This document shows positions 35,201-63,455 of a stretch of 64,000 nt of DNA, piece after piece. Source of the DNA: Lujinxingiaceae bacterium (lineage in GTDB: Bacteria > Myxococcota_A > Bradymonadia > Bradymonadales > Bradymonadaceae); NCBI GenBank assembly GCA_013697635.1, contig JACCWM010000147.1:1-64000 (forward strand). Reading direction: 5' to 3'. A program made the position numbers and the translations under genes. Below the pieces are notes generated by a model, which did no database searches, had not been told where the DNA came from, and was given only the letters and a program-made list of their open reading frames with translations. Within the stretch, counting starts at the first letter, position 1, and each line of letters starts with the position of its first letter.

Positions 35201-37975
35201 GTCGAAGATATCCTTTTCAGCGACGATCGCCATGCGCCGATACAGCGCGGCGCGAAGCTCGAGATCGTCTGTCGTGGAGGCTGCGGCGTCGAAGATGTCG
35301 TAGAGTTGCTCGAACTTACCCTGCGTGCGGTAGAGCGCATCGAGCTCGTCGTAGCGCTGAGCGCGCACATGAATCGCCGTCAGCCGCCCAAGCGCCGCGC
35401 TGTCTGCAGGATCGAGGCGCAAGACCTGCGCCCAGAGAGTTGCAGCTTTGTCGAGCGCGTCGAGGCGAGCCTCGTAGATCTCGGCGGCCTCGCTTAAGCA
35501 GGCCAGGCGAGCGTCGTCGCCTTCGGCGATGTCGGCTTTCTTTTCGAGCACGGATGCCAAATTGGCCCAGTCCTCCTGGCGACGATGAACAACTTCGAGC
35601 TTCTCGATGATCGGGCGGTCGTCGGGCGTGTGCTCGAGCAGGCGACTGAGCACGACCACGGCGCGCTCTGGATCGCGCAGACGATCCTGGGCCAGATCGA
35701 CGAGCTGGCGCAAATGGGCGATCAAGGCATCGCCCTCGAGAAACTGGGCATCACCCAGTTGCAGATCGAACAACGAGCGGTAGTCGCGCCGACTCTCGTA
35801 GACGCCGCGAAGGCGCTCGCGCGTCGGAGCATGGTCGGGCACCAATTCGACGAGGCGCTCAAGAAAGGGCAAGGCCTGTGTGACGTTATTGAGACGCTCC
35901 TGCCAGATGTCGGCCACCTCGGTGAGGTACTCGACCGTGCTGACCAAATCGCCCTTTTGACAGGCGCTCTCGCCGGCAGTGGCCAACAAAGCGGCCAGAT
36001 CGTTGAAGCGACGGTTGCTCTCGAGCAGCTCACGAAGCTGGTAGAAGGCCGTGGGGTGGGCCGGCTCGAGGGCAAGTATTTGCCCGAGCACGTTGATCAC
36101 CATCGTATCGAGGTTCATGTGCTCGCGGTAAATCTGAGCCATGTCCTCCAAAATTGTCACGCGCTCCTGGCGCGTAGCCTCGCCGCCGGCCTCGAGATGG
36201 CGCAGCTCGTCTTTGTAAAAGTCGACCAGGCTGTTCCACTTCTGGCTCGCCTCATAGAGCTGGCGAAGGCTCTGGCGTGCATGAAGATCGCCGTCGTGGT
36301 CGCGCAAGAAGCCTTTCCAAACGTCGATGGCCTTCTCGGGGCTATCGAGTTCGTTTTCGGCAATCTCGGCCAGGCGCGTGGCCAGCGCACGTTGTTCGTC
36401 CACGCCAGCGTGCTTGTTCTGACGTCCGCTCAAGAGCGCGAAGAGCTTACGCCACTCGCCCTGGATCTGGTAGAAGTCCTCATAGAAGGCGTAGACGTCC
36501 TCATGCTCGCCATCGAGCAGCTTGACGCGCTTGAAATAATACTCGGCGCGCTCCATCTCACCGAGTTCGTGCCAGAGAATGTTGGCCAACTCGAGCATTA
36601 CCTCGAGTTCGCCATCCTTCTTTCGCAGATGGCGCACCGAATCTTCGAGCTGAGCGATCAGCCCCTCGATGTCGCCCATTGCGCGAAGCGCATCGCGCAC
36701 CACGGCCAGGGCCGCGAGGTTGGTTCCATCTTTGGACAACAGCTCGCGGGCCGCGCCAACCTCCGTGATCGACGCGCTCGTCGTCGGGGTCGGCGTCGAG
36801 ACAACCGGGCGCACAATTGCCGCTTCCGGCGCAGCTGCCTTTGATTGCAATTCTGGTTTGGAATCTGGTTCGGAATCTGGTTCTGATTCGGGCGGCGCAG
36901 CCGTGTCATCGGGCGCTTGCTGCGCGCGAATCGCCGGCAGAATCATGGTCACTGCGCCCTCGAAGTGCGCCGGACGTTGCAGATCCTCGTGCGCCTCAGC
37001 CGCCAAATCGATGTTTGAAGTCGGCTCGTCTTGTTGCTCGACTGCCGGTTCGGCTTCAGCGATCGCTTCCACGTGCTCGACGATGTTGACCGGCGCAACC
37101 ATGGACACCGCGTCGCCGTGGCGCTCGAGCTGGATCGCACGCAACTCGTCGAGGCGGCCGAGCTCGCGGTAGAGCTCGCTCATGACCATCATGACATCGG
37201 AGTCTTCCGGAGACTGTTCATAGGCTGAGCGTGCATACAGCAGGGCTTTTTCGCGCTCGCTGCCCTCTCGGTCGTACTCGAGTTGGGCGGCCTGCAAAAA
37301 GAGCACGCCGGCTTCGTCACGGTCGCCACCTTGCTCGACGAGGCGCGTCGCCCGATGGGCGGCCTGAGAGATGCGCTGGCGCACGGTCTCTTCCGAGGAA
37401 TAGATCTCGCCCAGCTGCTCGATGAATTCGTCGTCTGGAGCGAGCTTGCAGGCCTCGCCGATGAGCTCGATTGCACCGTCGAAGTCCGAGCAGTCATCGC
37501 CTTTGACCTGGGCCATGCGCGAGAGCACGCCGGCGCGCCCGGCCGGCTCGCTCATGCGGTTGAGTTCGAGGGTGTAGAGCAGCAGCACGCGATCGAAGTT
37601 TCCACTCTTTCGATAGATCTGGCGCGCGCGCTCCAATGACGTGTTGTCATCGGGGTAGATCTTGTAGGCTGTCTGGTAGGCCTTCATGCCGGCATCTCGC
37701 TCGTCGGCATAATCGACATACAGATCCCCAAGCATCACCAGCAGATTTGCCTTGTCTTTTCCGTCGGCCAGCGCCTGCGCGACGCTCGAGAGCTTCTCGG
37801 CCAGTGCCTTGAAATCGACATCCTCGGCTCCGGCCTCATTGCGCTCGAGATAGAGCTGGTACATCGAGCGCCAGTCCCCCCCGCTTTCAAAGCGTGCTGC
37901 GAGCGCCCCAAAGGCCTCATGATCGAAGGGATTGGCTTTCAATTGATCCTGCAGAACTCGAATCTCGTCTGTCAT
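26231..37975 (-). CDS. giant tetratricopeptide-repeat protein (3914 residues)
   Basis: One uninterrupted frame of 11.7 kb. There is no signal peptide or membrane helix, so the product should be cytoplasmic. Apart from a Pro/Glu/Ser-rich linker near residues 290-405 (with ESEPDSEPDSKPE), it is built from TPR-like helical pairs. A larger unit of about 105-110 residues recurs along the length. A typical unit contains LLEAAQI..., a W/Y-x-x-VL-x-L/I-D/E-P block, AL-x-x-LERLY and R-W-x-E/D-L. From the total length I estimate roughly 35 units. The C-terminal units (HLGHVRKKLGDDRRAKDMFT) are closer to ordinary TPRs. Expected role: a very long superhelical scaffold. It is a single-gene unit, divergent from gltX. 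Confidence 0.93.
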   Translation of the reverse strand: MTDEIRVLQDQLKANPFDHEAFGALAARFESGGDWRSMYQLYLERNEAGAEDVDFKALAEKLSSVAQALADGKDKANLLVMLGDLYVDYADERDAGMKAYQTAYKIYPDDNTSLERARQIYRKSGNFDRVLLLYTLELNRMSEPAGRAGVLSRMAQVKGDDCSDFDGAIELIGEACKLAPDDEFIEQLGEIYSSEETVRQRISQAAHRATRLVEQGGDRDEAGVLFLQAAQLEYDREGSEREKALLYARSAYEQSPEDSDVMMVMSELYRELGRLDELRAIQLERHGDAVSMVAPVNIVEHVEAIAEAEPAVEQQDEPTSNIDLAAEAHEDLQRPAHFEGAVTMILPAIRAQQAPDDTAAPPESEPDSEPDSKPELQSKAAAPEAAIVRPVVSTPTPTTSASITEVGAARELLSKDGTNLAALAVVRDALRAMGDIEGLIAQLEDSVRHLRKKDGELEVMLELANILWHELGEMERAEYYFKRVKLLDGEHEDVYAFYEDFYQIQGEWRKLFALLSGRQNKHAGVDEQRALATRLAEIAENELDSPEKAIDVWKGFLRDHDGDLHARQSLRQLYEASQKWNSLVDFYKDELRHLEAGGEATRQERVTILEDMAQIYREHMNLDTMVINVLGQILALEPAHPTAFYQLRELLESNRRFNDLAALLATAGESACQKGDLVSTVEYLTEVADIWQERLNNVTQALPFLERLVELVPDHAPTRERLRGVYESRRDYRSLFDLQLGDAQFLEGDALIAHLRQLVDLAQDRLRDPERAVVVLSRLLEHTPDDRPIIEKLEVVHRRQEDWANLASVLEKKADIAEGDDARLACLSEAAEIYEARLDALDKAATLWAQVLRLDPADSAALGRLTAIHVRAQRYDELDALYRTQGKFEQLYDIFDAAASTTDDLELRAALYRRMAIVAEKDIFDTDRIIISLETLREISAQPVEVVNELIIWYRAVGEIAREIEMNRVLLEHAAGAEARYTQIVRLAELEAEREDVRAALSWQLKAVALRPEERATVQRAEDLARQADELVMFVREIEDVAEILDDEATQDMLWERVSRLQWRELAAYEDAIKGFERLRDRHPTDLEFLEILENLFELAHAPLRRIEVLRAQMSLLTERGATQGDLVDQLSKIADVQRTHLGERDAARETYAEILDLEPDHLPSLRGTKELYREDQRWPEVVDCLLRELSLTTIDSLEARVGVEIELAGVYREHLDDLAEALRYYGQVLTEAPDHEAALTEVEALLSEPALARDAALLLEPIFRDLDRPNPLVRALEARLAVCDDRFEEQEILDELIPLYSERLEDRAAAFDRACRQFDLDAERDDIWLRVEQLGASLNQWARIEALFSRHSPLEGFESPVRYDLLRHLAAIREHRLGKKDEALIAWERLHEYDPLDLATLEALERLYRKMERSQDLSAVLLSRADLVDHDDERIKLLLEAAQINDGILDDVATTIDIYRNVLITDQEQPEAVTSLERLLRAQRSWHELDELLAVQADITLAPERRREFVLKLALLRFEQMSDYPGATALLQQLLENDPGDDDVIEVLQRVDAHLADDGNMPELRLEIAQILEPVYRFRGQYNQLILVLRVRLQFTDAPFDRIELLDQLAELFLEKADDVHSAFDALRAAVVLDPENESRIERVEDLAREIERVVDAVASFKEATLQADPLLSAAIWKRVGGLERDVLDDAAAAIEAFEAALDCVEADHEALVALEGLFEVGGDYARLAENLRLQGVYGDPSLRAELLRRIGTLEEMVLERVIEATDAYTELLELEPDDIETMEALERLYERQDRWIDVAELLNRKVGSMHEPDLQIETLLKLAEIHETRLHNADDAIRVYNQVLSIDAGHDLALAALDRLFEAEARWAELADVLRAKMAAPSFEATELRNSLELRLAHLQLKELYAPEDAVDLYRAVLGRSPGQVEAIEALESLLRDPAWSEEVARDLVPHYRDSEQWDRLVALYDSQREQSHDPETKARFLFESAQIHRTHLADEPAAIEALAKAWKLDWEHDPYRAELVAVAANSQAWGALAEAIEDVLTVVSDPDRMLDLRMQLAHLYRDELEDSLEAETNLREALTLDERHGLAYAELETILLEAERWHDLVELLERRFGALGDSDVVSARETLLRIAQVQEEQLSDSFTAAETYQRVLGIEPQDGIASASLNRLLRAQERWQDLATHLEEQLQRSSDHSAVIDLKIELAQVYCDPLMEFGRALELYREILDLDGTHGQAIAALESIFAAEADLRGEVGAVLEPVYRRGGDWPRIIEVLEVRAGEQEDPIAQLSILREIAQIAEDALDDTKLALATWGRVFAADPQDASARAALQRLTSLSRNWSVLCDLYATSLRENFSIGDDLRAELLADQAQVFEERLVQLDDARRGYEEVLLLEPGHEAAIDALERIFMRSRDWAGLADFYGQRVESELDDTRARAWLERLSVLHEDVLGDTDAAIDVHMRIIELAPGDRLTQQTLVRLFSYAKRWQDLAELYRQRAAYAVDPNQVIELRFALARLLQDELEQLDEALDLYRDILAIEPGYFGAMRGLEGLRRDLGSKEGDWTAYRIQVIEILLAQYDEGRHWQRMVDLLEEKAELVVEVGVKVNVLVEVAELLSRVSEDIVERTQALTLLARAFCLDPSNQDLSEFVGTLADEIGAWERIVPIYLSGVENTDDAEIQSTILLAIARIYEGPLEDQESSITAYQQAIELAPENESAVARLQELYGELGLWKPLVAVLERRLDAVFDDSGRQRLLKRIASLYDETLHQPQDAARIYRQLREIDRSELAYIVVLERLYEQCEDHASLEALLRDKLAMVEDEGIRLRTLKRLAVIQDEVLNYAEAAIESYSTILAKDENDVGAIRALSRLFEQTERWPELLDMLNIERDCAGSTDELNSVQCRMGYVLLDKLNAPYDALPHFAEVVQRDAFFNGARLGLIRLLESEQTRDAAALVLEEIYRAAREWEALELLLEQQLEAQTQPDRRSELFVGLAQLHEVHFEQVEKAFMTLGRAFREQPAATSVRRELERLAGVMGNHDELVATYEDAIDAGIDNLDVLRDVHWHLGVAYAEILGELGEAIRHMEAVLGFDEFDIDCLDWLDRLYQQERQWEKLAGVLEKKLVLSDPDKLNSVCYQLGYLREVVFEQPAEALELYRRVILDEPRHGGALEGLERLVEEVDYRYEIFGLLEPIYLETDAHAKLAQLYNLRLETVESSAERSDLNKKIATIEIDHLHNTDVGYAYLGRALREDPHDSEVQERLERLADEHELFEQIVALYEDVIVGLNDPVRIIELALKAAVWSVNALGDTERATELFRSVLELENDNELALNSLEQIARHNESYEGLADVLAKKAEVLFDPDLRRAVLMELAAICAHLERFEQAIEAYKQALMLDESDIDVMQALVGLYEVTEQYDHLVDILERLTLHLYEPATQLQLFMRIGRYSTVFLKQFDRALGAYERAQQLDAENRDVLLALEELYEASGQWDMLAEILTTQLGAAQGNDELVRLLVKQAGLKYEQYGDAQGAIDDYLRAFEYQNDHPLIVSALDRLYRREGRAEELLNLLKHQLGLVGDGDNARRVPLLVQIADVCQSQLGDDDTAIAYLSGVLEIDRLHDGALEVLAALYSRKGDWAQVMGIWERQFEAAGSNEVRISIMTKIASLLDQTLERSHDAAAYYLEILQIEALHAETLETLTALYMRLAAYEQIHELLEHRASHASNDDERVALYLEMGELARKHIADPGARINALEKARALRPDDLTVVEPLLDAYIAANHLDRAEPILSGIITSLIDARRIKEVVRFHHLQGKLAEQKGDSPGALESYDAAHKIDATYIPNLLSLGKLHFRMEDWDQALKAFQTLLLHQMNIKENSDKVDVYFHLGHVRKKLGDDRRAKDMFTRALSIDPHHEASRQALTAL

Positions 37976-40958: not shown

Positions 40959-41828
40959 TTGCAAGATCTAACACCAAACACAGGCATCACCCGTGGCGTC
41001 GCCCTGGCGAGCGCGATCATCCTCGGCCTGGCGGGCATTGCGACTTTGGCACACGCAGCGCTTCCCCAGGCGCCAGGCGGCCCGTTCGACGCCGCCGCTG
41101 TCGCCCGGCTTACCGAGCTCAACCTCACCCACGTCTACGGCCTCAACGCAGCCGACGTAGGTTGGCTGACTGGCGCTTTGAGCCAGTCCTTTCCCGCAAT
41201 GAGCATCGCGCCCTATCCAGGCGGCGAAGCGTTCGCCGGCGCGGTGTTGACGCGATCTCAGCGCGTTGATCATTGGTTGCCCCCAAAACACGCGGTTGAG
41301 CTCGAAGTGGAGCCACTGGGCGACGGATGGACCCTGCTCCTGCCCCCGGGCGGCATCGCGCTGCCGAATTTGCCGCAGATCGCGGCAGCAACAGTCGTTC
41401 TTCGCGCCGAAGATGGCAGTGAGAAGCCCTGTTCGACGTATCGCAACGGTCGCTTTCAATGCCGCAAGCCCGGCTGGTCCTACGTGGGCCAGGCCAAGGT
41501 GCGCGTTGCTGGCAAGAGTGAAAGCTGCATCTGGGCCCATCCCCTGCAAGACGCCACGATCATCGTTGCCTATCCATCAACCCAGCCCACCGAAGGCCGC
41601 AAGCTGGTGTTGGAGACGGCCCTCACCGATGGGTCCGTAGGTGGCGGCCACCCGGTCGACGTGCGGGTAAGCTTTGGCACCAAGAACATCACCCATGTGC
41701 ATCCCGACCGTAAGGGTTGGACGCGAAAGACGATCCCACGCTCTGACGACGCGGCCGCGCTCACCGTGGAAGTCTCCGCTGCTCACACCGGACGTCGCCA
41801 CTTCTGTTACCGCTTCGTGGAGCAATGA
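40959..41828 (+). CDS. secreted protein of unknown function
   Basis: 289 residues from a TTG start with GAAGG 7 nt upstream. An N-terminal hydrophobic segment (GVALASAIILGLAGIATLAH) ending AHA looks like a cleavable signal. The mature part has five cysteines, including CSTYRNGRFQCRKPGW, and beta-rich C-terminal sequence. It is followed 1 bp later by the GT-C-like membrane protein, so the pair is likely a functional unit. No family is recognised. Confidence 0.7.
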   Translation: MQDLTPNTGITRGVALASAIILGLAGIATLAHAALPQAPGGPFDAAAVARLTELNLTHVYGLNAADVGWLTGALSQSFPAMSIAPYPGGEAFAGAVLTRSQRVDHWLPPKHAVELEVEPLGDGWTLLLPPGGIALPNLPQIAAATVVLRAEDGSEKPCSTYRNGRFQCRKPGWSYVGQAKVRVAGKSESCIWAHPLQDATIIVAYPSTQPTEGRKLVLETALTDGSVGGGHPVDVRVSFGTKNITHVHPDRKGWTRKTIPRSDDAAALTVEVSAAHTGRRHFCYRFVEQ

Positions 41829-41829
41829 G

Positions 41830-43395
41830 ATGAAAGCTCTCAAGGCCCTGGGCGCGCTGGCCGCAGTCGTAGTTTACTTTTTCGCCGTGCTTGGCTTTGG
41901 CGGGCTGACCTCGGATAGCGTCGCCATGCTCGAGCAAGCGCGCCAGGTCGCCTCGACCCTTTCGGGCGGAGGCTGGGCCGCGCTCTTGGCCAGCCCACAC
42001 GCTGGGGCGGAGCTAGTCGCGGGCCTCGTGAGCTACGCATTCGCCGCGTCGGACACGTTTTGGCTGTGGATCTTGTCGGCCATGGCGATTGTAGCGAGCG
42101 TTCCGGCCGTCTACCGAATCGGCGCACGTTTCCACGGCCAGTCAGCGGCCGTGGTGGCAAGCGTCGTCTTTGCCACGAGTGCACCGATCGTTGCTGCGGC
42201 GACGAGCATCTCGACGAGCGCGCTGTGCGTCTTCGCCTGGTGTTGGCTGCTCGATCTGACCACGGCACAGCCTCGCTGGTACAAGATGCTCATCGCTGCC
42301 GCCCTTTCGGCCTTCTTGCTGTTGAGCTGGGCGCCCGTTTTCCTTTGGATGGTGCTTTGGTTGGTCGTCACCGTTTCGCTCTCCGGGCGTGCGGAGCTCG
42401 CTCCGCTTGCACTTCAGGAGCGTGGTATGATGCGCCCGGCGGCCATCGACATCGGCGTCGTGCTCGTCCCCGCGATTGCGCTCCTGCTCGCAAGCGTGGT
42501 GCATCCCGGCATGTGGTCGGGCCTGATCGCTGGCTGGCAGGCCGTGCTCGGCTCCGTGATTGAGGCGCGACCCGCCGCCTTGCTCTTTCGCGGCGAGATG
42601 TATCCGCCCGCCCGACCACCGATCGACACCGGCCTCACCTTCATTTTGACGCGTTTCTCGCTGGTCGCCGTGGCCGCGGCGCTGCTGGGCCTGGTATTTG
42701 CCGCGCTCAGCCAACACCTTGGCCAGCGGCCCCCTAAGAAGCTGTACAGTGGCCTGGCCCTGGCCGTCGTCTTGCTGGCACTGCTTCCCTGGATGCTGCG
42801 CTCGACCCACTATGGCCGCGTTGATACCCTGGCCATGGTTGCGCCGATCATCGCCATCTTCGCCGGCTACGGCGTGGCTCGACTGATCGAGCTGGCCCGT
42901 GCGATGCTCGGCATCTTGCCAGGCCAACGCGCAGACATCGCCATCAAGGCGGCCGTCGCCTTGCTCGCTATCACGCCACTTTGCGTCGAGTCCGCCCTGG
43001 CGCACCCCCACCACGGCTCCTATTACAACGGCCTGGTCGGCGGCCTCGCCGGCGCCGCCGATCACGGCTATCCGCTCGACCACGACGGCCTCGTCCCGGC
43101 AAAGCTCCTCAACGCCCTCAACACCCACGCCGGATCCCAGCCCATCTGGGCCGGCGAGCTCGCCCCATACCTGCGCGAGCTCGCCACCATGCGCAACGAG
43201 CGCCCCCTCAATTACGCCAGCACAATCGGCGACGGCCAGGTATTCGTTCGCCGCTACCAGGACTTCAGCCCCCGCGACCCCACCTCAGCCTCCCGCGCCA
43301 CGGCCAGCGGCGGCGAGTTTGACACGTTGCAGCTTGGCCCAGCGGGCGTATTTCTCTTCGCCATCGACCGCCCCTTCGACGAGGACGGCCAATAG
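41830..43395 (+). CDS. multi-helix membrane protein, probable GT-C type glycosyltransferase
   Basis: 521 residues from the ATG at 41830. About ten hydrophobic helices are visible (residues 3-25, 60-80, 95-130, 150-185 and so on), followed by a soluble C-terminal part of about 110 residues. The layout and the segment HPHHGSYYNGLVGGLAGAA near the end of the membrane region resemble PMT/ArnT-like transferases that use polyprenyl-phosphate sugars. The usual acidic pair in the first periplasmic loop appears only as SDSVAMLEQARQ, so activity is uncertain. The partner gene directly upstream encodes a secreted protein. Confidence 0.6.
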   Translation: MKALKALGALAAVVVYFFAVLGFGGLTSDSVAMLEQARQVASTLSGGGWAALLASPHAGAELVAGLVSYAFAASDTFWLWILSAMAIVASVPAVYRIGARFHGQSAAVVASVVFATSAPIVAAATSISTSALCVFAWCWLLDLTTAQPRWYKMLIAAALSAFLLLSWAPVFLWMVLWLVVTVSLSGRAELAPLALQERGMMRPAAIDIGVVLVPAIALLLASVVHPGMWSGLIAGWQAVLGSVIEARPAALLFRGEMYPPARPPIDTGLTFILTRFSLVAVAAALLGLVFAALSQHLGQRPPKKLYSGLALAVVLLALLPWMLRSTHYGRVDTLAMVAPIIAIFAGYGVARLIELARAMLGILPGQRADIAIKAAVALLAITPLCVESALAHPHHGSYYNGLVGGLAGAADHGYPLDHDGLVPAKLLNALNTHAGSQPIWAGELAPYLRELATMRNERPLNYASTIGDGQVFVRRYQDFSPRDPTSASRATASGGEFDTLQLGPAGVFLFAIDRPFDEDGQ

Positions 43396-43400
43396 CAACG

Positions 43401-43479
43401 CATCTGGTGGCGGGCCGCCAAAGATCGACCCCTCAGGGGACCCGACCTTTGGATAAATATGACAGCGGGCTGCCAGATG
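43401..43479. repeat. palindromic repeat, copy 1, between convergent genes
   Basis: The 37-bp core is 43410-43446, centred on CCCCTCAGGGG. CCAAAG and CTTTGG flank it as an outer stem, with TCG/CGA between. An outer inverted repeat CATCTGG (43401-43407) / CCAGATG (43473-43479) encloses it, and the first 11 bases of the core recur at 43465-43475. The unit lies between two gene ends and probably terminates both. Confidence 0.75.
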
Positions 43480-43493
43480 TCACAACGGCATGA

Positions 43494-44660
43494 TTAGACC
43501 ACACCCTCGGCGCGCAATTGGCCGATCGCCGGCGCGTCAAATCCGAGGGTTTCGAGCACCTCGTGGGTGTGTTCGCCAAGTAACGGTGGCCGGCGGTGCT
43601 CCATGGCATGCGGGGTTAGCGGCGTTCTCATGTGGCGCACGCCGCATAGCTCAAAGAAGCTCTTTCGGGCGCGAAACAGCTCGTCCTCGAAGGCCTCGGC
43701 CGGCGAGAGGACCGGTTCGATGCAAAGATCGAGGCTGGCGAAGATCTCCATCCATGCATCCCGGTCGCGCTGTTTCAAGATGTTGGCTACCTGGGTGCGA
43801 GTGGTCTCACCGAGCTCGCCGGTCATCAAGCCGTCGCCGGCGAGCTCGGGCGCGCCAATGGCCGTGACAAAACCTATCCAAAATTTGGGTTCGAGCGCTC
43901 CGACCGCAAGATAGCCACCGTCTGCGCAGGCATAAACGCCGTAGGAAGCGACGCCGCCCGTCAGCATGCCCTGTCCACGCCCGGCCTGCTCGCCTGCCGC
44001 CAGAGTTGCCTGCAGCGGTAGATGAAAGGAGAGCGCGCCGTCGGTCATGCTGATATCGAGAAAACAGCCCTGGCCGCTGCGCTCGCGGCGAAACAAGGCG
44101 CTGACGATGCCAAGTCCTGCGTAAAGCGCGCCACCGGCCAGATCCGCCAATTGAAAGCCGGGCACGACCGGTTTGGCCCCGGGCAAACCGGTCTGCTCGA
44201 GCACACCCGAGCGGGCCAAAAAATTGAGATCGTGGCCTGCGCGCAAAGACAACGGGCCATCGGCGCCGTAGCCCGAGATGGCGCAAAAGATAAGCCTGGG
44301 ATTGAGCGCGCGCAGCCGCTCATGGCCAACGCCCAGGCGCTCCATCACGCCCGGGCGAAACGACTCGATCACGACGTCAGCCTCGAGGACAAGGCGCTCG
44401 AGCACCTCAACGCCTCGCGCATCCTTGAGATTGAGCGTCAGCGAGCGCTTGTTACGGTTGATCGACGCAAAGAACACACCCATCTCATCGACAAAGGGCG
44501 GATAGTAGCGCGCGTAGTCACCGCCGCTCGGATCCTCGATCTTGAGTACATCGGCGCCCATATCGGCCAGCAGCAGCGTACAAAACGGGCCCGGCAAGAG
44601 CCGCGACAAGTCGAGCACCTTGATGCCCTCGAGCGGCTGGCCCAGCGTTGCTTCGTGCAT
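43494..44660 (-). CDS. CaiB/BaiF-type CoA transferase, alpha-methylacyl-CoA racemase-like
   Basis: 388 residues from the ATG at 44660; GGAGG lies 6 nt upstream, and an overlapping ATG at 44666 is too close to it. Family III CoA transferase features are clear: GIKVLDLSRLLPGPFCTLLL at the N-terminus, ADMGADVLKIEDPSGGD, and GYGADGP...AGHDLNFLARSG, in which D144 is the catalytic Asp. The AGHD-x-N context is that of alpha-methylacyl-CoA racemases, which epimerise branched fatty acyl-CoAs. It lies downstream of an SCP2 gene, which suits lipid or sterol-like metabolism, though a terminator separates them. Confidence 0.9.
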   Translation of the reverse strand: MHEATLGQPLEGIKVLDLSRLLPGPFCTLLLADMGADVLKIEDPSGGDYARYYPPFVDEMGVFFASINRNKRSLTLNLKDARGVEVLERLVLEADVVIESFRPGVMERLGVGHERLRALNPRLIFCAISGYGADGPLSLRAGHDLNFLARSGVLEQTGLPGAKPVVPGFQLADLAGGALYAGLGIVSALFRRERSGQGCFLDISMTDGALSFHLPLQATLAAGEQAGRGQGMLTGGVASYGVYACADGGYLAVGALEPKFWIGFVTAIGAPELAGDGLMTGELGETTRTQVANILKQRDRDAWMEIFASLDLCIEPVLSPAEAFEDELFRARKSFFELCGVRHMRTPLTPHAMEHRRPPLLGEHTHEVLETLGFDAPAIGQLRAEGVV

Positions 44661-44681
44661 GATCATCCTCCAAGAAAACAA

Positions 44682-44710
44682 AGCGCGCCCCGGAAAGACC
44701 AGGGCGCGCT
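44682..44710 (-). terminator. rho-independent terminator after the SCP2 gene
   Basis: AGCGCGCCC (44682-44690) and GGGCGCGCT (44702-44710) form a perfect 9-bp stem with an 11-nt loop. On the minus strand it is followed by TTTGTTTTCTT. It sits between the SCP2 stop codon and the ribosome site of the CoA transferase, so it ends or attenuates read-through into the latter. Confidence 0.85.
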
Positions 44711-44743
44711 CGTGTGTTGCTACGGAGCTCGAGAGCCAGGGTT

Positions 44744-45076
44744 TCAGCCGATGAAGTTCTGCAACTTCATCGCCAGGCCCATGTTGCCCGCGATCTTGAT
44801 CTTGTTCATCATGAAGGCCTGCGGCCCAGATAGGCGACCCTCCCACATGTCGACGAAGTCCGAATCCTTCATCGTGATCGTGCACTGCGCGGCATCGCTC
44901 TCACCCTCGGCGACGAAATCCTCATCCTTGGTGAAGTCCAGCGTCCAGGTGCCGGCATCGTCGCCGGTGATGTTGAACTGGTAGATCGCGTTGGTGGACT
45001 TGGCCTTGTCAGGATTGACCTTGAGCTTGGCGGGAAGCACCTCTTCGAAAATCGTCTTGGCGGTCAGATCGGACAT
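44744..45076 (-). CDS. SCP2 sterol-carrier-domain protein
   Basis: 110 residues; start ATG at 45076 with GGAG 6 nt upstream (an in-frame GTG at 45082 is too close to it). It is a stand-alone SCP2 domain: ATWTLDFTKDEDF-like central strands (GTWTLDFTKDEDFVAEGESD), then CTITMKDSDFVDMWEGRLSG and GPQAFMMNKIKIAGNMGLAM, the hydrophobic lipid-tunnel helix and strand. Such proteins bind fatty acyl-CoA or sterols. Divergent from accC; followed by a terminator and the AMACR-like gene. Confidence 0.92.
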   Translation of the reverse strand: MSDLTAKTIFEEVLPAKLKVNPDKAKSTNAIYQFNITGDDAGTWTLDFTKDEDFVAEGESDAAQCTITMKDSDFVDMWEGRLSGPQAFMMNKIKIAGNMGLAMKLQNFIG

Positions 45077-47007: not shown

Positions 47008-47907
47008 ATGATGAAGATGACAATTGCATCGCTTACGTTTGCTTTGTTTGCTGCACTCACCCTTCCCGCCTGCGGCCGATCGGCCGTCGAGGATCCACCA
47101 GGCTGTGATCCCGCATGCCCGCTTGGCCAGGTCTGCATAGCAACCGAGGACGCCGATGAGCCCCAGTGCATCGTGGAGTTCACCGGTGGCGGCCCGCAGA
47201 CCACCACCGAGAGCTGCTCATGGCTTTCGGCCTGCATCGCCGACTGCGACGATACCGTGTGCACGGCCGTCTGTGAGGCCCAGGTAGACGAGGAGATTCG
47301 CCACGCACACTCCTTTTGGAGCGCCTGTTTGCAAAACAATTGTGAGGGACTGCAAAGCGATGAGTGCGTGCGCGCCTGGTGCGCACCCCAGGCCATGCGC
47401 TGCTTCGGCGTACTGCCTGGCGAACCCCTGACCGTAGGCCCGCTCGCTTGTGCACAGATCGCCGAATGCGTCGATCGCTGCGCCGATGACGCCTGCGCCA
47501 CAGAGTGTCGCTTTCAGGGCACCGAGCGCGCCCAGGAGCAGCTGATCGCCCTCGATGACTGTCTCGAGGCGCGCTGCGCTGGCGCCGACGCGACCGATAC
47601 ATGCCCCGAAACCCAGTGCCTGAGCCCAATGACGACCTGTTTTGGTCCCGGACCCGACCCGGCCGAGGGAACGGCCAATTGCACCGAACTTCACGCCTGC
47701 GTGCGCACCTGCTCGGACAATATTTGTGTTCAAAACTGCAACGCCCAGAGCACCTTCGCCGCTCAACAGGCCCACCGCCATCTCATCCAGTGCGGACTGA
47801 CCAACTGCGTCGACCCCGACATCCAAGAGATCGACTTCGCGATGTGCTACCAGAACATGTGCGGCGACATGCTGAGAATCTGCTTTGAGGCGGAACACCA
47901 GGAGTAG
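47008..47907 (+). CDS. Cys-rich lipoprotein with three internal repeats
   Basis: 299 residues; lipobox LTLPAC (C22). After a short Cys-knot-like start (CDPACPLGQVC) come three repeats of about 75 residues. Each runs C-x-x-L/I-x-x-C-x-x-x-C-x-D-x-x-C, helix, L/W-x-x-C-x-x-x-x-C, C-x-x-x-x-C, ending in MRCFG / TTCFG / LRICF. The cysteines should form disulphides in a helical periplasmic or surface module. The style is typical of Myxococcota/Bradymonadales accessory lipoproteins. Function unknown. A dispersed palindromic repeat follows. Confidence 0.8.
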   Translation: MMKMTIASLTFALFAALTLPACGRSAVEDPPGCDPACPLGQVCIATEDADEPQCIVEFTGGGPQTTTESCSWLSACIADCDDTVCTAVCEAQVDEEIRHAHSFWSACLQNNCEGLQSDECVRAWCAPQAMRCFGVLPGEPLTVGPLACAQIAECVDRCADDACATECRFQGTERAQEQLIALDDCLEARCAGADATDTCPETQCLSPMTTCFGPGPDPAEGTANCTELHACVRTCSDNICVQNCNAQSTFAAQQAHRHLIQCGLTNCVDPDIQEIDFAMCYQNMCGDMLRICFEAEHQE

Positions 47908-47918
47908 CAATATTGGTA

Positions 47919-47955
47919 GCGGGCTGCCAAGGATCGACCCCTCAGGGGACCCGAC
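47919..47955. repeat. palindromic repeat, copy 2, between convergent genes
   Basis: 37-bp core with CCCCTCAGGGG at the centre, differing from copy 1 at two positions. It lies between the Cys-rich lipoprotein stop and the uvrA stop. A small inverted repeat TTGG...CCAA brackets its left part. Confidence 0.75.
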
Positions 47956-47974: not shown

Positions 47975-50740
47975 TCATTCGCCGATCAGATCGCGCAGGT
48001 AGTGGCCGGTGATGCTCTCGGGGCATGCGGCCACTTCGGCAGGTGTGCCGCAGGCGACGAGCTTGCCGCCGTAGGGGCCGGCGCCGGGGCCGAGGTCGAG
48101 CACGTAGTCGCAGCGGGCGATGAAATCGGTGTTGTGCTCGATGACGATGACCGTGTGGCCAATCTCGAGCAGCTTGCGAAGCGCGCCAAGCAGCACGGCG
48201 ACGTCGCGCAGGTGAAGTCCCACGGTCGGCTCGTCGAAGATAAAGAGTACAGGGCGCGACTCACTGCTCTTTCGGCCCTCGGCGATGTAGGTTGCGAGCT
48301 TCAAGCGCTGGGCCTCGCCACCGGAGAGCGTGGAGGTGGTCTGGCCAAGGCGCAGATAGCCCAGTCCGACCTCTTGTAGGGGAGCGAGCTTTCGAATCAG
48401 CGCCGGGGTGCTGGCAAAAAAGTCGACGGCCTCATCGACGGTCATCGCAAAGACGTCGCTGATGTTCTTGCCGCGGTACTGCACGGCCAGAACCTTGCGG
48501 GTGAAGCGGTGGCCGTCACATTGCTCACAAACCACCTCGATGTCAGCCATGAAGTGCATCTCAACGACGTTGTATCCGGTGCCCTCGCAGCTCTCGCAGC
48601 GGCCGCCGGGCGTGTTGAAGCTGAAGTCGCCCATGGTCAAACCGGTGAGCTGCGCCTCGCGAGTCTGACTGAAGACCTTGCGGATGTCGTCGTAGCCCTT
48701 GGTGTAGCTGAGCGCGTTGGAGCGGCTCGAGCGTCCGATCGCGCCCTGGTCCATCAGCACGACATGGTCGAAGTCCTCGAGGCCTTCGAGGCGCTCAAAG
48801 CTGCCCGAGGCGATGCCGCCGTGGCCCTGGCTTCGGCGCCAACTGTTGTAAAGCACCTCTTCGAGCAAGGTGGACTTGCCCGAGCCGCTGACCCCGGTGA
48901 CCACGCTCATTCGATTGTGAGGGATCGCGACGTCGAGGTTGTCGAGGTTGTGTTCACTGGCGCCAAAAATACGAATCCATTTGTCGCTGGTGGGTTTTGC
49001 GCCCTCGTCAAGCAGGTCGGCGGCCATTTCGGTGGCTCGGCCCAAATCAAAACCACCGACTGGCCCGCTGTACATCAACTCGCCGCCGTGTTCACCGCCG
49101 AGCGGGCCAAGCTCGAGGATATAATCGGCGCCCAAAATGATCTCCGGGTCATGCTCGACGACCACCACGGTGTTGCCCAGATCGCGCAGTCCACGAAGCA
49201 CCTCGAGCAGACGCTGGGAGTCGCGCGCGTGCAAGCCCGCCGTGGGCTCGTCGAGCACGTAGAGCGTGTCGGTGAGCGCGCGGCCAAGGCTCGACGTCAG
49301 GTGGATGCGCTGCATCTCACCGCCGGAGAGCGTGCGCGATTGACGCTCGATGGTCAGATAACCAAGGCCCACCTCGACCAGGTAATTGAGGCGGTACAAA
49401 ATTTCGTCGAGCAGCGTCTGCACGCGCTTGCCCAGATGCTCGGGCAGGCGCAAATCGCCAAACGCCGCGAGGGCCTGCTCGATGCGCATGCCCCAAACGT
49501 CGCTGATGAGCATGCCGGCGACACGCACGTTTCTCGCGTCAGGGTGCAGGCGGCTGCCCTCGCAGCTCGGGCACAGGTCATAGCCGCGGTAGCGCGCAAG
49601 GAAGATGCGCACGTCGGTCTTGAAGGTCTTGGCTTTGAGCTCGTCGAAGAACTTCGAGAGGCCCTTGTAACCCTTGCCTCCGAAGCGCACGAACTTTTGA
49701 TGCTCGGCCGCAAGCTTCGCAAAAGGCACGTCGATCGCGATGCCCGCCGTCATGCACGCCTTGACCAGGGCCGCTTGTTGGCGCACGTACTTGGGCGTCT
49801 GAAAGCAGGCGATGACGCCGCCCTCGATCGTCAGCGAAGGGTTGGGGATGACTTTTTTGAAGTCGACGCCCATGGTCTTGCCAAAGCCCGTGCACTCCGG
49901 GCAGGCGCCAAGCGAGCTGTTGAAGCTGAACAGCGCCGGCTGAGGCTCGACGAAGTTGGTGCTGCACGTGTTGCAGCGAAACGCCTGGTCGAAGACCATC
50001 GGCGCGCTGGCTTCACCGGCGCGGTAGATCAGTATGCGCCCTTTTCCCAGCGCCAAACCTGCCTCGACCGCCTCGGAGATGCGCATCTGGGCATCTTCGC
50101 GCACAATGACGCGGTCGATGACGACGGGAAAATCCGAGCGATCGAGCAGACGATCGAAGTCCGCTTCGCGCAGATCGACCGTCTCGCCGTCAAGATAGAG
50201 GCGCGCATAACCTTCCTGCACGAGATGCTTGAGCATCGAGGCGCGATGCTCCGCAAGCGTTGCATCGACCGTGGCCACGATGACCAGGCGAGCGCCATCC
50301 TCAAGCGCATTGAGCGTGTTGACGACGCTCGCCACGGTGTCGCGCGAGACGAGCAGCTCGCAGTTGGGGCAAATCGTCTGGCCGGCATGGGTAAACAGCA
50401 GCTGGAGGTGGTCATCGATCTCGGTGACCGTGCCCACGGTCGAGCGCGCGTTGGAGACCTCGTTTTTCTGGCGCAGTGCGACGGCCGGCTGGATATTGTG
50501 CACGGCGTCGAGCGGCGGCTTCTCCATGCGCTGCAAGAATTGGCGCGCATAGGTCGACAAGGACTCCGTATAGCGGCGCTGTCCCTCGGCGTAGAGCGTG
50601 TCAAAGGCCAGGCTGGACTTGCCCGAGCCGCTGACGCCGGTGACCACGGTCAACTGACGGTGCGGGATGTCACAATCGACGTTCTTCAAATTGTGCGTTC
50701 GCACACCGCGAAGCGCGATGTGCTCTGGTGCTCGCTTCAT
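47975..50740 (-). CDS. uvrA: UvrA family ATPase (excinuclease ABC subunit A)
   Basis: 921 residues from the ATG at 50740. Two ABC ATPase modules are present: Walker A GVSGSGKSS (35-43) with signature LSGGEMQR, and Walker A GVSGSGKST with signature LSGGEAQR. The zinc modules CNTC...CPEC and CESC...CEQC are intact, and a UvrB-interaction region lies near 130-230. It loads UvrB on DNA damage. It is slightly shorter than E. coli UvrA (940), and the first signature (EMQRIHLTSSLG) differs from the usual, so it could be a second UvrA paralogue. It begins 8 bp after the long lipoprotein gene, at the end of an opp operon, an unexpected context. Confidence 0.92.
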   Translation of the reverse strand: MKRAPEHIALRGVRTHNLKNVDCDIPHRQLTVVTGVSGSGKSSLAFDTLYAEGQRRYTESLSTYARQFLQRMEKPPLDAVHNIQPAVALRQKNEVSNARSTVGTVTEIDDHLQLLFTHAGQTICPNCELLVSRDTVASVVNTLNALEDGARLVIVATVDATLAEHRASMLKHLVQEGYARLYLDGETVDLREADFDRLLDRSDFPVVIDRVIVREDAQMRISEAVEAGLALGKGRILIYRAGEASAPMVFDQAFRCNTCSTNFVEPQPALFSFNSSLGACPECTGFGKTMGVDFKKVIPNPSLTIEGGVIACFQTPKYVRQQAALVKACMTAGIAIDVPFAKLAAEHQKFVRFGGKGYKGLSKFFDELKAKTFKTDVRIFLARYRGYDLCPSCEGSRLHPDARNVRVAGMLISDVWGMRIEQALAAFGDLRLPEHLGKRVQTLLDEILYRLNYLVEVGLGYLTIERQSRTLSGGEMQRIHLTSSLGRALTDTLYVLDEPTAGLHARDSQRLLEVLRGLRDLGNTVVVVEHDPEIILGADYILELGPLGGEHGGELMYSGPVGGFDLGRATEMAADLLDEGAKPTSDKWIRIFGASEHNLDNLDVAIPHNRMSVVTGVSGSGKSTLLEEVLYNSWRRSQGHGGIASGSFERLEGLEDFDHVVLMDQGAIGRSSRSNALSYTKGYDDIRKVFSQTREAQLTGLTMGDFSFNTPGGRCESCEGTGYNVVEMHFMADIEVVCEQCDGHRFTRKVLAVQYRGKNISDVFAMTVDEAVDFFASTPALIRKLAPLQEVGLGYLRLGQTTSTLSGGEAQRLKLATYIAEGRKSSESRPVLFIFDEPTVGLHLRDVAVLLGALRKLLEIGHTVIVIEHNTDFIARCDYVLDLGPGAGPYGGKLVACGTPAEVAACPESITGHYLRDLIGE

Positions 50741-50748
50741 AGTTGCTC

Positions 50749-53700
50749 TTAGAGAGAGAAACGCTCGGCCAGGCTTTTGACGTCCGCCTGAATCCGTCGA
50801 TCTTTGGCCTGGGCCGCATGTTCCTCGCAGCGTACGACGGCGCGCGAAGCCTCGTGCCACTGGCCCAGCAGCACGAAGTTCTGTGCTTGCTGGTAGGCAA
50901 TTGCCGCCAACGTGGTCGGCGCAATCTCGTCAGCCTCCAAGAGCGCGCGTTCGATGAACATCTTGGCCTCGACAGGACGCAATTGGTATATCAGCGTCGC
51001 CATGCGTAAACGCATCAGTTCGCCGGCCGATTCCTCGCCAGGACGATGGAAAACGGCGCTGTGAGCGTCAAGCGCAACCTCGGCATCGTCAGCGCGACCG
51101 GTCTCGAGCAGATAGCTCACGAGCTCGGAGACCTCGCTCGAACGCGCGCTCGAGCCTGCACGCTCCAGGCGTTGTTCGAGGCGACGGTGGGCGGCGCCAT
51201 CGTAGGGGCGCTGGGGCCCGGCGATCTGGGTGAAATAAGCCAGGCGCAAGCTCTCACGCGGCTCGGCGCCACCCAGCGACTGGCTGAAAGCACGTGCCAG
51301 CGCGGCGCGCTGTGATGGCTGATTCGGCTCGATCAGGGCCACGAGCATCGTGGCCTCGCTGCGGGTACGCTCGACGCTGGCCAACGCGGCGCAACGTCGA
51401 AGCAGGGGCAGCGCTCGGGAGAGCTGACCGCCGTAAAACGCCACCTTGCTACGAAGACACAGCGTCGCCTCGCGCGAGGCATAAGGCGCAAAACCAACCT
51501 CGAAGAGCTCATGCATATGGCGATCGGCGGCCGTGATGTCACCGCCCGCGAGGGCCAGCCCGATCAGAGCGCGGGTGGCCTCGCGTGCTACGTCCGGCGC
51601 GCGAAAGACGTCGATCTGGGTGCGCAAAAGGGTCAGGTGTAAGAGCACATCCGCCAGCCGCTCGCTGCTGCGCGCGGCCGCACCCTGAGCTTCGAGCACC
51701 TCGATTCGCACCGACGGAGCCACACTGGTCGGAAACTCCGCCAGAATCGCCATAGCCTCCTCGAAGTCCTCGTCAGCTTGAGCTTGGCGACCATGGCGTT
51801 GATGCCATTGGCCACGGAGCCCACGCTGGCGAGCCACCAGAATGCGCGCTTGCTGTGAGGTGACGAGACTTGCCGGCAGGCCTTGCTCGATCGCGAACGC
51901 CTGGGAGAGCGCTTGCTCGGCTGCGGCCGCGTCATTTCGTGCCAGATCATGGCGAGCAGCGAGCTGAAGCAGGCCCATCTGCTCGATCTCGGCGCGGCCA
52001 CCGAGACGCTCGAAGGCGCCCTTTCGAAGCATCTTTGCGCGTGCCGTGTCGCCAAGGCGCGCGGCCGCATCGCTTTGATAGAGCTCAATGCGACTTTGCT
52101 GCGGGCCACTCTGAGGCGCCTGCAACTCAACAAGATCTTGCCAGCGTCCAGCCTCGTTGAGCAGCCCAGCCAAGTACAACAAGTGCTCTTGCTCGAGCTG
52201 ACTTTGGCGCGCGTTTTGAGCAGCTTGGACCGATGCCCGCGCGAGAAGGACGGCGAGCCAGTCGATGCCGCGCGCGCTGAACTGCTGGCTGAGGTCGAAA
52301 AGATGCTGGGCAGCACGCGCCGGATCGATCGACTGTCGCAAGATGGCGAAGGCCTCGACAACGCGTTGCTCGGCACTGGGCCCCTCAACGAGGACGTCCT
52401 CATCAACCGCTCCAGGCGATCGATCGCCAGCCTCGGTTTGAGCGCGGATCAAAGCCGCTTCAAGCAGCAATATCTCGGCTGCACGACCACCACGGACTTC
52501 GATGAAGTCCGGCGTCAGCATGGCGCGCAGCTCCGCGACGACGAGGTCGGCACGATCGAACTGCTCCATTTGAAGGTGACGATAGCCCTGCCCCAGCCAG
52601 ATCGCGACCACCTTGGGGTCGGCTGCCAGGTAGTCACGAGTCGTCTCACAGGCGCGTCGAAGCTGAGCAGGATCGCCGTGCTCGCGCGAGGTGGCCACGG
52701 GCAGGCCGCGCGTGCACACCGAGGCCAGCGCCGATCGTGCATCGCGGCGAAGATGCATCTCGTCGACCATCGACAGCCCGTTGACGATCGCCAGCCCATA
52801 GCGGTAGACGTCTTCATTGCCATAGGCTTTGCCGATCTTGACCAAAATCGAGGCCGCAAACAGCGCGCCGACCGGATCGCCGAGCTCACCGGCTTGGCCG
52901 AAGGCCTCGAGCAGACCGCCACTGGGATCAAAGCCCGGCTGAGCCTGCTGGCGCGCAACCAAGGCCAGGATCTCAGCACGGTTGGTGGCCACGGGCTCAT
53001 CGAGCTGCGCGAGCTTGGCCATGGCCGAGGCGATCAACTCCAGCGCGTCACGCGTGCGCTCGGCCTCGAGCAGCAGGCGAGCCAGTCGAAGCTCGCTGAT
53101 CGCCGCAAAATAGAGCGAGCCGCCGGCCTGATAGAGATTTCGCGCCTGCAAGCCCGCATCGATTGACTCGGCCACGCCCCCCAGCTCGAAGCTAAATCCT
53201 GCTTGGCGCGCCAGCGCCGTGGCGGCCATCAAAGTATCGCCGGCCTCGCCATAGGTATTGGAGGCCGAGCGTGCATGGCGCGCGGCTTGTGCCATATCAG
53301 CGCGCTCGGCAAAGGCGCGCGCAAGCAGCAGTTCGGCGCGCGCACGACCGAGCGCGCCGGCTGGCGCAGGCCACGTGCCAAAGAGCTCCATCGCGTTTGT
53401 CGCGTAATGCTCGACGGCCGGCCAATTGGCTTCGAAGGCGAATGAGCGTGCGATGTAGATGGCCAGGTCGGCGTCGATCCCCTCCGCGCTGGTCAGCAGC
53501 TCGGCTCGCATCCATGCCCCAAAGCCTGCGGATGCGAACAGCTCGAGGCGGCGCCACCGGGCCGCATGGCGATTGCCGTGCACCTCGAATTTTTGATCAC
53601 GAAGCAAAAAGGCCGCGACGAGCGGATGACCATCGCGAAGCGCAGCGAGCGCGCGCGCTGCCTTGATCAGGTCGGCAGACGAGGTCTGCGCCCCAAACGA

Positions 53701-61117: not shown

Positions 61118-61318
61118 TCGGGGCACGGGCCACCACAACAATGGAGCAGTCTTTGACCACTTCGCGGCACCGAACTTCGTGATGCGCAGTGGCGCAGATT
61201 AATTCACTGTTATGGCGCGATAATCACCCATGGCACGGCGTTTGCTGTTATGAACGAGCTGAGACGCGCACGCCTGTCGGGCGTCGACCTCGAGCCAACC
61301 TATTTCACCGGAGTTTTT

Positions 61319-62308
61319 ATGTCATCGCATATGCCCACACCACGCTGGATCCTTCGCTCTGCCCTGATTTTTGCCCTTGCCCCGTTCTCCATGGCCGCCG
61401 TATGCGGCGGCGCCACGGCCGGCGGCGAGAACGATCAGCTCAGCCTCAAGATCGTCGACGATCAATTCGAGTCGGCCGTCACGAGCACGACCTTGGCCGA
61501 GGGCACCCGCGTGACCATGCGTGCGGTCAGCGGACTCAAAGATTCGTTGACACTGGAGTCGGCCAAATCGAGCAGCCCGGGCGTGCTCGAGGTCGTCAGC
61601 TTTCAGCGCGATCTGGTGGTCTTGTCCGCCAAGAGCGCCGGCGAGGCGGTCATCGACGTGGTCGCCGAGGGTCCCGAGTCGGGCAATTTGCGCGATTCGG
61701 TCAACCTGAGCGTTCGCACCCCGGCCTCACTCGAGATCACTGACTCCTGCCGCGACGAGGTCTACCTCACCGCCGGCACCATCGATCTGCCCTATACGAT
61801 GCGTGATTCGAGCGGAAAATCGCTCGCAGGTTACGGATTCTACCCCTTGAACTTCATCCCGGCTGGCCCCGGCCCCAGCGTCGACGCCAACATCACCTCC
61901 GTGGGCCTCGTGCGATTTCGCACCGGCGACAAGGCCGGCAACTTCGCTTTGAACTCGGATCTTTCGGTCAACGCCATGAGCCTCGAGATCGTCGAACCCG
62001 ACCAGGTCACCGTATTCAACGCCGACTCCGCCACCGGCCCCGACATCTCGTTGGCATCCGGCACCGCACCGGTGGTCACCTTCCTGATCAAGACGGCCAC
62101 CAAGTCCATTTGCGGCACCTCCGATCACGTCCAGGTCACCTCGCTTACGCCCGACACCTGCATCGGCTCGATGGGATGGTTTCTCGGCGCCAACTACCTG
62201 CGCGTAACCCCGAAAGCCACCGGCTCCTGCCAACTCGAGGTCAACCTTCTCGGCACCGACGACGCCATCTTGCACAGCGACGGCTTCGCCCTCGAAATCG
62301 CCCCCTGA
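61319..62308 (+). CDS. secreted protein with Ig-like beta domains
   Basis: 329 residues from the ATG at 61319 (GGAG 6 nt upstream). An N-terminal signal (ILRSALIFALAPFSMAAVCG) might be a lipoprotein signal with C29, though Val at -1 is unfavourable. The rest is beta-rich: SLKIVDDQFESAVTSTTLAE and LKSA-type segments (VVLSAKSAGEAVIDVVAEGP) recall bacterial Ig-like (BIG) modules. Cysteines near 144, 265, 281 and 301 could pair. No function assigned. A palindromic repeat follows. Confidence 0.75.
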   Translation: MSSHMPTPRWILRSALIFALAPFSMAAVCGGATAGGENDQLSLKIVDDQFESAVTSTTLAEGTRVTMRAVSGLKDSLTLESAKSSSPGVLEVVSFQRDLVVLSAKSAGEAVIDVVAEGPESGNLRDSVNLSVRTPASLEITDSCRDEVYLTAGTIDLPYTMRDSSGKSLAGYGFYPLNFIPAGPGPSVDANITSVGLVRFRTGDKAGNFALNSDLSVNAMSLEIVEPDQVTVFNADSATGPDISLASGTAPVVTFLIKTATKSICGTSDHVQVTSLTPDTCIGSMGWFLGANYLRVTPKATGSCQLEVNLLGTDDAILHSDGFALEIAP

Positions 62309-62325
62309 CACCCAATATCCTGGCT

Positions 62326-62362
62326 GCGGGCTGACAAAGATCGCCCCCTCAGGGGAGCCGAC
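62326..62362. repeat. palindromic repeat, copy 3, between convergent genes
   Basis: 37-bp core with CCCCTCAGGGG, differing from copy 2 at four positions. It separates the Ig-like protein from the convergent pirin gene. Confidence 0.75.
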
Positions 62363-62384: not shown

Positions 62385-63407
62385 CTACCAGCCGACCTGC
62401 TCTTCTCGTCCGTCGGCGTGAATGGCGAAGCGGCCCTGCTCACGGGGATGAACCAGGGCTTCCGCCGACCAGGGCCAGCCGCCAAAGCCGGTGGTCTGGT
62501 AGTCGAGCATGGCCTGGCGAATCTCGCCGGGATAGTTCATCACGAAGGGGCCGTGCTGGGCGACGGGCTCGCCGATGGGTGTGCCCTGGAGCACCAAGAT
62601 CTCCGATTCCTGCTCGCCGTTGACCAGCTCGAGCGCGGCGTCCGGGCGCACGAAGATGCTGTGGCCGCTTTGCACGTCCTGGCCGGCGACCTGCAGGCTG
62701 GCGCCCCGAAAAAAGTACAGGCCCCGGTTCGAGGTCGCTGCTGCAGCCGGCAGCGTCCAGCGGGCGCCCGGCGCCATCTTGATCGTCCAGATTGCCACGT
62801 CGGAGGCCGGCTTGGCCGCCCAGGAATCCGGGGGCGGGGCCGGCGCGCGCAGACCCTCGAGCTGGCCTGCGACGAGCGTCACCTCGGTCGCCCTGCCCTG
62901 CGCGTCTTCAAAGCGCGTGCGCGGCACCTCGTCTCGCCAGAACATCGAGAAGTACGGGTCGACACGCTTGGAGGCGGCGGGAAGATTGAGCCAGATCTGA
63001 AAGAGCTCGGTGGTGTTCGGCCCCTCCTGGTCAAGCAGCGGGAAGGCCTCGGAGTGCACGACGCCGTTGCCGGCCGTCATCCACTGCACGTCGCCATCGC
63101 CAAAGCGCGCCGTCGCCCCAAGCGAGTCGCTGTGGTCGATGAAGCCCTGGCGCGCCATCGTCACCGTCTCGAAGCCACGGTGCGGGTGGCGCGGAAAACC
63201 CGGCACCACGTCACCATGGTACATGCTCCAGCCGTCCTTGCCGCTAAAATCGGCGCCGATGCTGCGCCCGGCAAGCGACGCCGCCGGCCCCATCTGCTCG
63301 TTGGCGATCGGATAAAGGTCCAGGTGATGAACGCAAAAAAGAAAAGGGTCCTGCGTCTGCCAGGGAAAACCCAGCGGCGCGATGTTCTTGATGAGATCGT
63401 GGGCCAT
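62385..63407 (-). CDS. pirin family protein (bicupin)
   Basis: 340 residues from the ATG at 63407; an in-frame GTG at 63416 is an alternative. The metal ligands are conserved: H74 and H76 (PRHPHRGFETVT), H118 and E120 (VVHSE), matching human pirin H56/H58/H101/E103. Two cupin domains are evident. Bacterial pirins act as quercetinases or metabolic regulators. It is longer than typical (about 290) because of extended loops such as APAPPPDSWAAKPASD. Cytoplasmic. Confidence 0.92.
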   Translation of the reverse strand: MAHDLIKNIAPLGFPWQTQDPFLFCVHHLDLYPIANEQMGPAASLAGRSIGADFSGKDGWSMYHGDVVPGFPRHPHRGFETVTMARQGFIDHSDSLGATARFGDGDVQWMTAGNGVVHSEAFPLLDQEGPNTTELFQIWLNLPAASKRVDPYFSMFWRDEVPRTRFEDAQGRATEVTLVAGQLEGLRAPAPPPDSWAAKPASDVAIWTIKMAPGARWTLPAAAATSNRGLYFFRGASLQVAGQDVQSGHSIFVRPDAALELVNGEQESEILVLQGTPIGEPVAQHGPFVMNYPGEIRQAMLDYQTTGFGGWPWSAEALVHPREQGRFAIHADGREEQVGW

Positions 63408-63455
63408 GCGAATCACTCTCGGTGGTTAGATGTTAAGAGCCTGACACAGGCACTC

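Follow-up and report, generated by a model that had tools for sequence, protein, structure and literature searches.

A lineage-specific palindromic repeat at gene 3' ends and its probable Y1/HUH transposase partner in a Lujinxingiaceae bacterium

The window, a 64,000-nucleotide stretch from a Lujinxingiaceae bacterium, contains three copies of a repeat that is very probably a REP/TIR-like non-autonomous mobile palindrome, mobilised by a RAYT/TIRYT-type transposase of the Y1/HUH class that would also move as a whole unit. Transposase genes flanked by the palindrome in inverted orientation, together with the motifs and predicted fold of the encoded proteins, point to this reading, which gives an otherwise puzzling intergenic palindrome a probable engine.

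The repeat family and its hairpin

The window lies on contig C164 of the 6.2 Mb assembly, whose 213 contigs are denoted here by C-numbers. As the original prediction described, three 37-mers occur on the same strand, with two differences between copies 1 and 2 and four between either of these and copy 3, and each is flanked by the stop codons of two converging ORFs (Table 1). The half-copy of copy 1 and the larger inverted repeat formed by CATCTGG (43401-43407) and CCAGATG (43473-43479) are likewise present. In itself the 37-mer is not a complete palindrome: it comprises a 24-nt imperfect hairpin, GTCGG-GT-CCCC-TGA-GGGG-YCGRY on the minus strand, and a single outer arm, GCGGGCTGCCAAA. The 24-nt search pattern matched the window three times at up to three mismatches, against 0.00 expected. 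An Rfam search at the window element gave no match.

Table 1. Coordinates of the repeat copies, their flanking genes and the transposase genes with readable flanks
Feature	Contig	Position	Strand	Description
Copy 1 element	C164 (window)	43401..43479	-	core, one outer arm, partial second arm, closing arms CATCTGG/CCAGATG; ssDNA folding z -2.67
Copy 1 37-mer	C164 (window)	43410..43446	-
Copy 1 core hairpin	C164 (window)	43423..43446	-	GTCGGGTCCCCTGAGGGGTCGATC
Copy 1 half-copy	C164 (window)	43465..43475	-	outer-arm sequence GCGGGCTGCCA on plus strand; partner of arm 43410-43420
Copy 2	C164 (window)	47919..47955	-	core 47932-47955 and outer arm 47919-47931; second arm missing
Copy 3	C164 (window)	62326..62362	-	core 62339-62362 (GTCGGCTCCCCTGAGGGGGCGATC) and outer arm 62326-62338
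ORF upstream of copy 1	C164 (window)	41674..43395	+	stop 14 bp before copy 1; without Pfam/NCBIfam match
CoA-transferase family III gene	C164 (window)	43494..44885	-	converges on copy 1; PF02515, E=1.6e-101
ORF upstream of copy 2	C164 (window)	47008..47907	+	without family match
Excinuclease subunit UvrA gene	C164 (window)	47975..50860	-	converges on copy 2; TIGR00630 above cut-off
ORF upstream of copy 3	C164 (window)	61250..62308	+	without family match
Pirin family gene	C164 (window)	62385..63416	-	converges on copy 3; PF02678/PF05726
Transposase gene	C180	45667-46620		cores 45463+/46622-, both sides
Transposase gene	C30	2622-3632		cores 2417+/3682-, both sides
Transposase gene	C32	131146-132087		cores 130941+/132116-, both sides
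Transposase gene	C164	72036-72950		8 kb past the window; inverted core on 3' side, contig ends on 5' side

Genome-wide, the conserved part of the repeat is the 16-mer GTCGGSTSCCCTGAGG, followed by an arm that pairs again with GTCG. This 16-mer occurs in 59 exact copies in the assembly (reversed control, 0), and the core pattern in 54 copies at up to three mismatches; reversed-pattern controls in the genome searches returned no matches, so chance is excluded. Among 57 relatives (20 of the same family, none of the same genus), GTCGGSTSCCCTGAGG was found as one copy in one genome, and the contrast with the 59 copies in the source genome marks the repeat as specific to this lineage. A stricter 18-base pattern, searched against genome contigs, gave five scattered single matches in unrelated phyla, which were judged to be chance.

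On the minus strand of the window, the element reads GTCGG-(ST)-SCCC-TGA-GG.., followed by a variable arm. In a search that put no constraint on the 3' arm, GTCG made four standard pairs at one fixed offset in 43 of 53 distinct copies, compared with a random expectation of about 2.5 and a maximum of 9 in 2000 draws. Position 22, which faces a constant T (T2), is either A or G, and position 23, which faces a constant G, is C or T. Sequence is thus conserved on the 5' strand but mainly pairing on the 3' strand, a pattern that fits reading of one strand as a single-stranded hairpin. With its 59 exact 16-mers and paired arms, the family resembles REPs, described as imperfect palindromes of 20-40 bp in many dispersed copies; its foot, GTCG, is paired with CGRY, in place of the unpaired GTAG/GT[AG]G or CGTC tag of REPs.

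The strong conservation of the 16-mer and the dispersal of its copies could also suggest a site that has nothing to do with transposition, either a protein-binding operator or one for chromosome organisation. We consider this highly improbable, because the 3' arm varies while its pairing is kept, the copies are located at 3' ends and not at promoters, the relatives lack the repeat apart from the single copy mentioned above, and inverted copies bound transposase genes.

Outer arms flank the core, and both are present in the copy at C126:104108, which folds as single-stranded DNA far better than its shuffles (z -6.1). The folding of copy 1 is moderate (z about -2.7), and that of copies 2 and 3, with one arm each, is no better than that of shuffles. 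The outer arm GGCAGCCCGCTGCC might also be an independent repeat; many of its better matches adjoin cores or belong, as arms, to one and the same element, and the weaker ones come near the reversed-control background (75 versus 16). At three sites (C185:5926-5981, C32:130920-130964 and C97:24970-25009), nested or tandem 16-nt half-units (GTCGGCTGCCCTGAGG), arranged head to tail, precede the core; these arrays seem to be copies inserted beside, or slipped along, older copies. In other copies (C10, C32:12427, C78, C97, C152, C180:40710 and C184:19870), a second downstream module, TTTGGCGTCGTTGCTTGATGAGACG, replaces the GGCAGCCCGCTGCC arm after the core; it may define a sub-family that has a transposase of its own.

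Location at gene 3' ends and RNA-level readings

Gene context was assigned on about 0.7 Mb of contigs of the assembly by a custom gene caller trained on them, and these sampled contigs served as the background. Of 47 dispersed copies placed in this way, 20 are in convergent, 12 in tandem and 5 in divergent spacers, 7 lie inside predicted genes and 3 at contig edges. This distribution, with 37 intergenic copies against 7 in genes, agrees with that of REPs, reported chiefly from convergent and unidirectional gaps between ORFs, near 3' ends (PMC3733652). Specifically, 26 of the 37 intergenic copies are within 60 bp of a stop codon (6.9 expected) and 20 of the 37 are convergent (5.0 expected); none of 20,000 resamplings was as high in either case. 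The convergent location largely follows from the position of the copies just downstream of stop codons, although the convergent class is still enriched when near-stop spots alone are considered (18 of 26 copies versus 28% of spots). The original claim that the repeat always lies between convergent genes thus holds for the three window copies but not genome-wide. Copies scattered inside genes or at promoters were to count against the original prediction, and copies inside genes and in divergent spacers do occur, which speaks in part against a bidirectional terminator. The 3'-end bias may reflect an insertion preference or survival.

Four intragenic copies (C42:15193, C42:15526, C93:7561 and C142:32147) are located in three long ORFs and read in the same frame, so that each adds the peptide KVGSPEGP. 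They resemble Rickettsia palindromic elements (RPE), which sit inside ORFs, whereas only a minority of the present copies is intragenic. Elsewhere in the window, a single ORF of 3914 aa extends over 26231-37975 on the minus strand.

The palindrome had been proposed to serve as a bidirectional terminator. A terminator kept between convergent genes, with its repetition secondary, would be consistent with the marked 3'-end and convergent location, with the G+C-rich hairpin of the core and with the RNA folding of copy 1, which beats nearly all shuffles on both strands. This explanation is nevertheless very improbable. T-rich tails follow 2 of 46 and 4 of 46 hairpins on the two strands, compared with 11% of background 20-mers, so that there is no excess of T-tracts. 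Copies 2 and 3 fold as RNA no better than shuffles on either strand, and a consensus scan of the window region gave terminator-like sites no more often than shuffles did, with only a poor site at copy 3. Furthermore, the copies inside genes and in divergent spacers are not accounted for, and most convergent gene pairs lack the element. The stable RNA hairpin with a U-tract that defines an intrinsic terminator was not found. A separate, classical-looking terminator is located beside some copies (C32:92949 and C32:61399), an arrangement that suits insertion near gene ends.

A role at the RNA level is compatible with mobilisation by the transposase and would be added to it. Secondary use of the REP-like elements to stabilise mRNA 3' ends or as Rho-attenuation sites could be the reason why they are kept behind stop codons. 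The 3'-end bias is in line with such a role, for which literature cited by PMC6006769 and PMC3733652 offers a precedent in enterobacterial REPs. We regard it as possible but rather doubtful, given that copies 2 and 3 have no RNA structure beyond that of shuffles and that the motif does not keep one orientation relative to tandem genes.

Transposase genes bounded by the palindrome

Inverted core pairs about 1.2 kb apart, each enclosing one ORF of 313-336 aa, led to the transposase. As in REPtrons, the Y1 transposase gene is flanked by the palindrome in inverted orientation in the three intact copies of C180, C30 and C32, and in C164 on the one readable side (Table 1). The C30 and C32 transposases are 74-84% identical to the C180 copy. 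The source genome contains 15 transposase matches, many at contig ends, and the copies in C171, C105, C79, C169, C185, C206, C115 and C116 are cut by them, a pattern typical of multicopy elements, which break assemblies. A sub-clade represented by C5 and C171 (about 64-66% identical) is bounded by a variant palindrome, GTCGGGGTCCCTGAC(CCC), whose 15-mer has 9 exact copies; transposase and palindrome thus vary together. The original suggestion of a mobile palindrome is supported by the approximately 60 lineage-specific copies and by the same palindrome bounding a multicopy HUH transposase gene. Against mobilisation, we counted the limited identity of the intact paralogues (63-84%), the weak folding of window copies 2 and 3 as single-stranded DNA, the NCBIfam and PF01797 scores below cut-off that are given in the next paragraph, and the outer arms of the dispersed copies (GGCAGCCCGCTGCC and GGCGTCGTTGCTTGATGA), which differ from those at the transposase ends.

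The residues N62-H-F-H65 (NHFH), Y122 and N126-P127 (YxxxNP) are invariant in 15 homologues. An HUH motif combined with YxxxNP is the signature of class 2 TnpAY1 (PMC6006769), the class of TnpAREP and TIRYT. The NCBIfam model REP_Tyr_transpos (REP-associated tyrosine transposase) matched with E=4e-13 and 49.5 bits, below its curated cut-off of 80, and the match to Pfam Y1_Tnp (PF01797) was weak and below cut-off. A PDB sequence search with the transposase gave no match, but a fold search with its AlphaFold model (pLDDT 89.9) returned as first match 4er8, in which the E. coli REP transposase holds a REP hairpin (E=3.3e-6, TMt 0.73), followed by the IS608 and ISDra2 transposases. Most PF01797 matches in the genome (C191, C73, C138, C170, C102 and C200) were rejected as partners, with no core nearby.

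Transposase matches are carried by 50 of the 116 genomes searched, the source genome included; outside it, identity is at most 39%. One complete relative, G010 (C1, L210-L222), has at least 19 copies, a set looking like an active expansion. Most of the 13 copies read in it have another palindrome, GGTGTCAGACACC, which precedes the gene by about 175 nt, a distance similar to that between core and gene in the source genome. The flanks of distant homologues (relatives; C98 and C2; L177-L179, L203 and L204) carry GGTGCCAGGC and TGCCTGGCAC palindromes, some in tandem, apparently another palindrome type tied to the same transposase family.

We infer that the transposase cleaves the palindrome and mobilises the orphan copies. 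It would most likely recognise the single-stranded hairpin GTCGG(GT)CCCCTGAGGGGYCGRC, which it would then cut and rejoin. In this manner it would have spread whole transposase units, with about 1.2 kb between their inverted palindromes, as well as orphan palindromes. Copies would persist for the most part just 3' of stop codons, which often places them between convergent genes, as insertions there may be tolerated or favoured. A more specific proposal, which we put forward tentatively, is an intermediate between insertion sequences and REPtrons: a single lineage combining whole multicopy units with orphan palindromes that have a fully paired GTCG foot, with sub-clades carrying their own palindromes. 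Its copies would not merely survive at the 3' ends of genes but insert there by preference, single strands becoming exposed at these sites through convergent transcription or replication.

Comparison with known systems

The probable assignment to a transposase is a warning that palindromes between convergent genes should not simply be taken for terminators. It also contributes a lineage in which a single genome has several transposase-palindrome pairs, closely related to one another and naturally suited to studying how REP transposases choose their hairpins and why the elements gather after stop codons. The closest known kinds are the TIRtrons/TIRYTs (2013, PMC3733652) and the TnpAY1 subclass 2.1 and REPtrons (Quentin et al. 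2018, PMC6006769). We file the element under the broad RAYT/TIRYT-palindrome kind and not under a named REP family, because its paired GTCG foot, multicopy transposase and GGGGASCC motif differ from the textbook definitions.

As in TIRYTs and subclass 2.1, the transposase is a long Y1/HUH protein that has a C-terminal domain and carries the motifs NH[YF]H and YxxxNP, the flanking repeats are inverted and partly self-complementary, and dispersed copies of the repeat are moderately abundant. The TIRYT motif GGGGWSAS fits the C5/C171 variant GGGGTCAG, whereas the main family reads GGGGASCC; the tyrosine motif is YVLANP/YLLANP and not Y[IV]xLNP, and the transposase occurs in many related copies. 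Similar to the REPtrons of E. coli and Pseudomonas (REP/BIME with RAYT/TnpAREP), a short, imperfect, bulged hairpin flanks its transposase in inverted orientation, most of its dispersed copies lie 3' of genes, in convergent or unidirectional gaps between ORFs, and the best structural match is 4er8. In contrast to REPtrons, GTCG is paired, without an unpaired GT[AG]G foot, and the copies number about 60; moreover, the REPtron transposase is single-copy and immobile as a unit, whereas the multicopy genes found here suggest that whole units also move. The IS200/IS605 elements IS608 and ISDra2 share the Y1/HUH fold, multicopy whole units and terminal hairpins. Unlike them, the present transposases have YxxxNP in place of the class 1 YxxxQ and a C-terminal extension of about 170 aa, with inverted palindromes at the two ends and numerous orphan palindromes.
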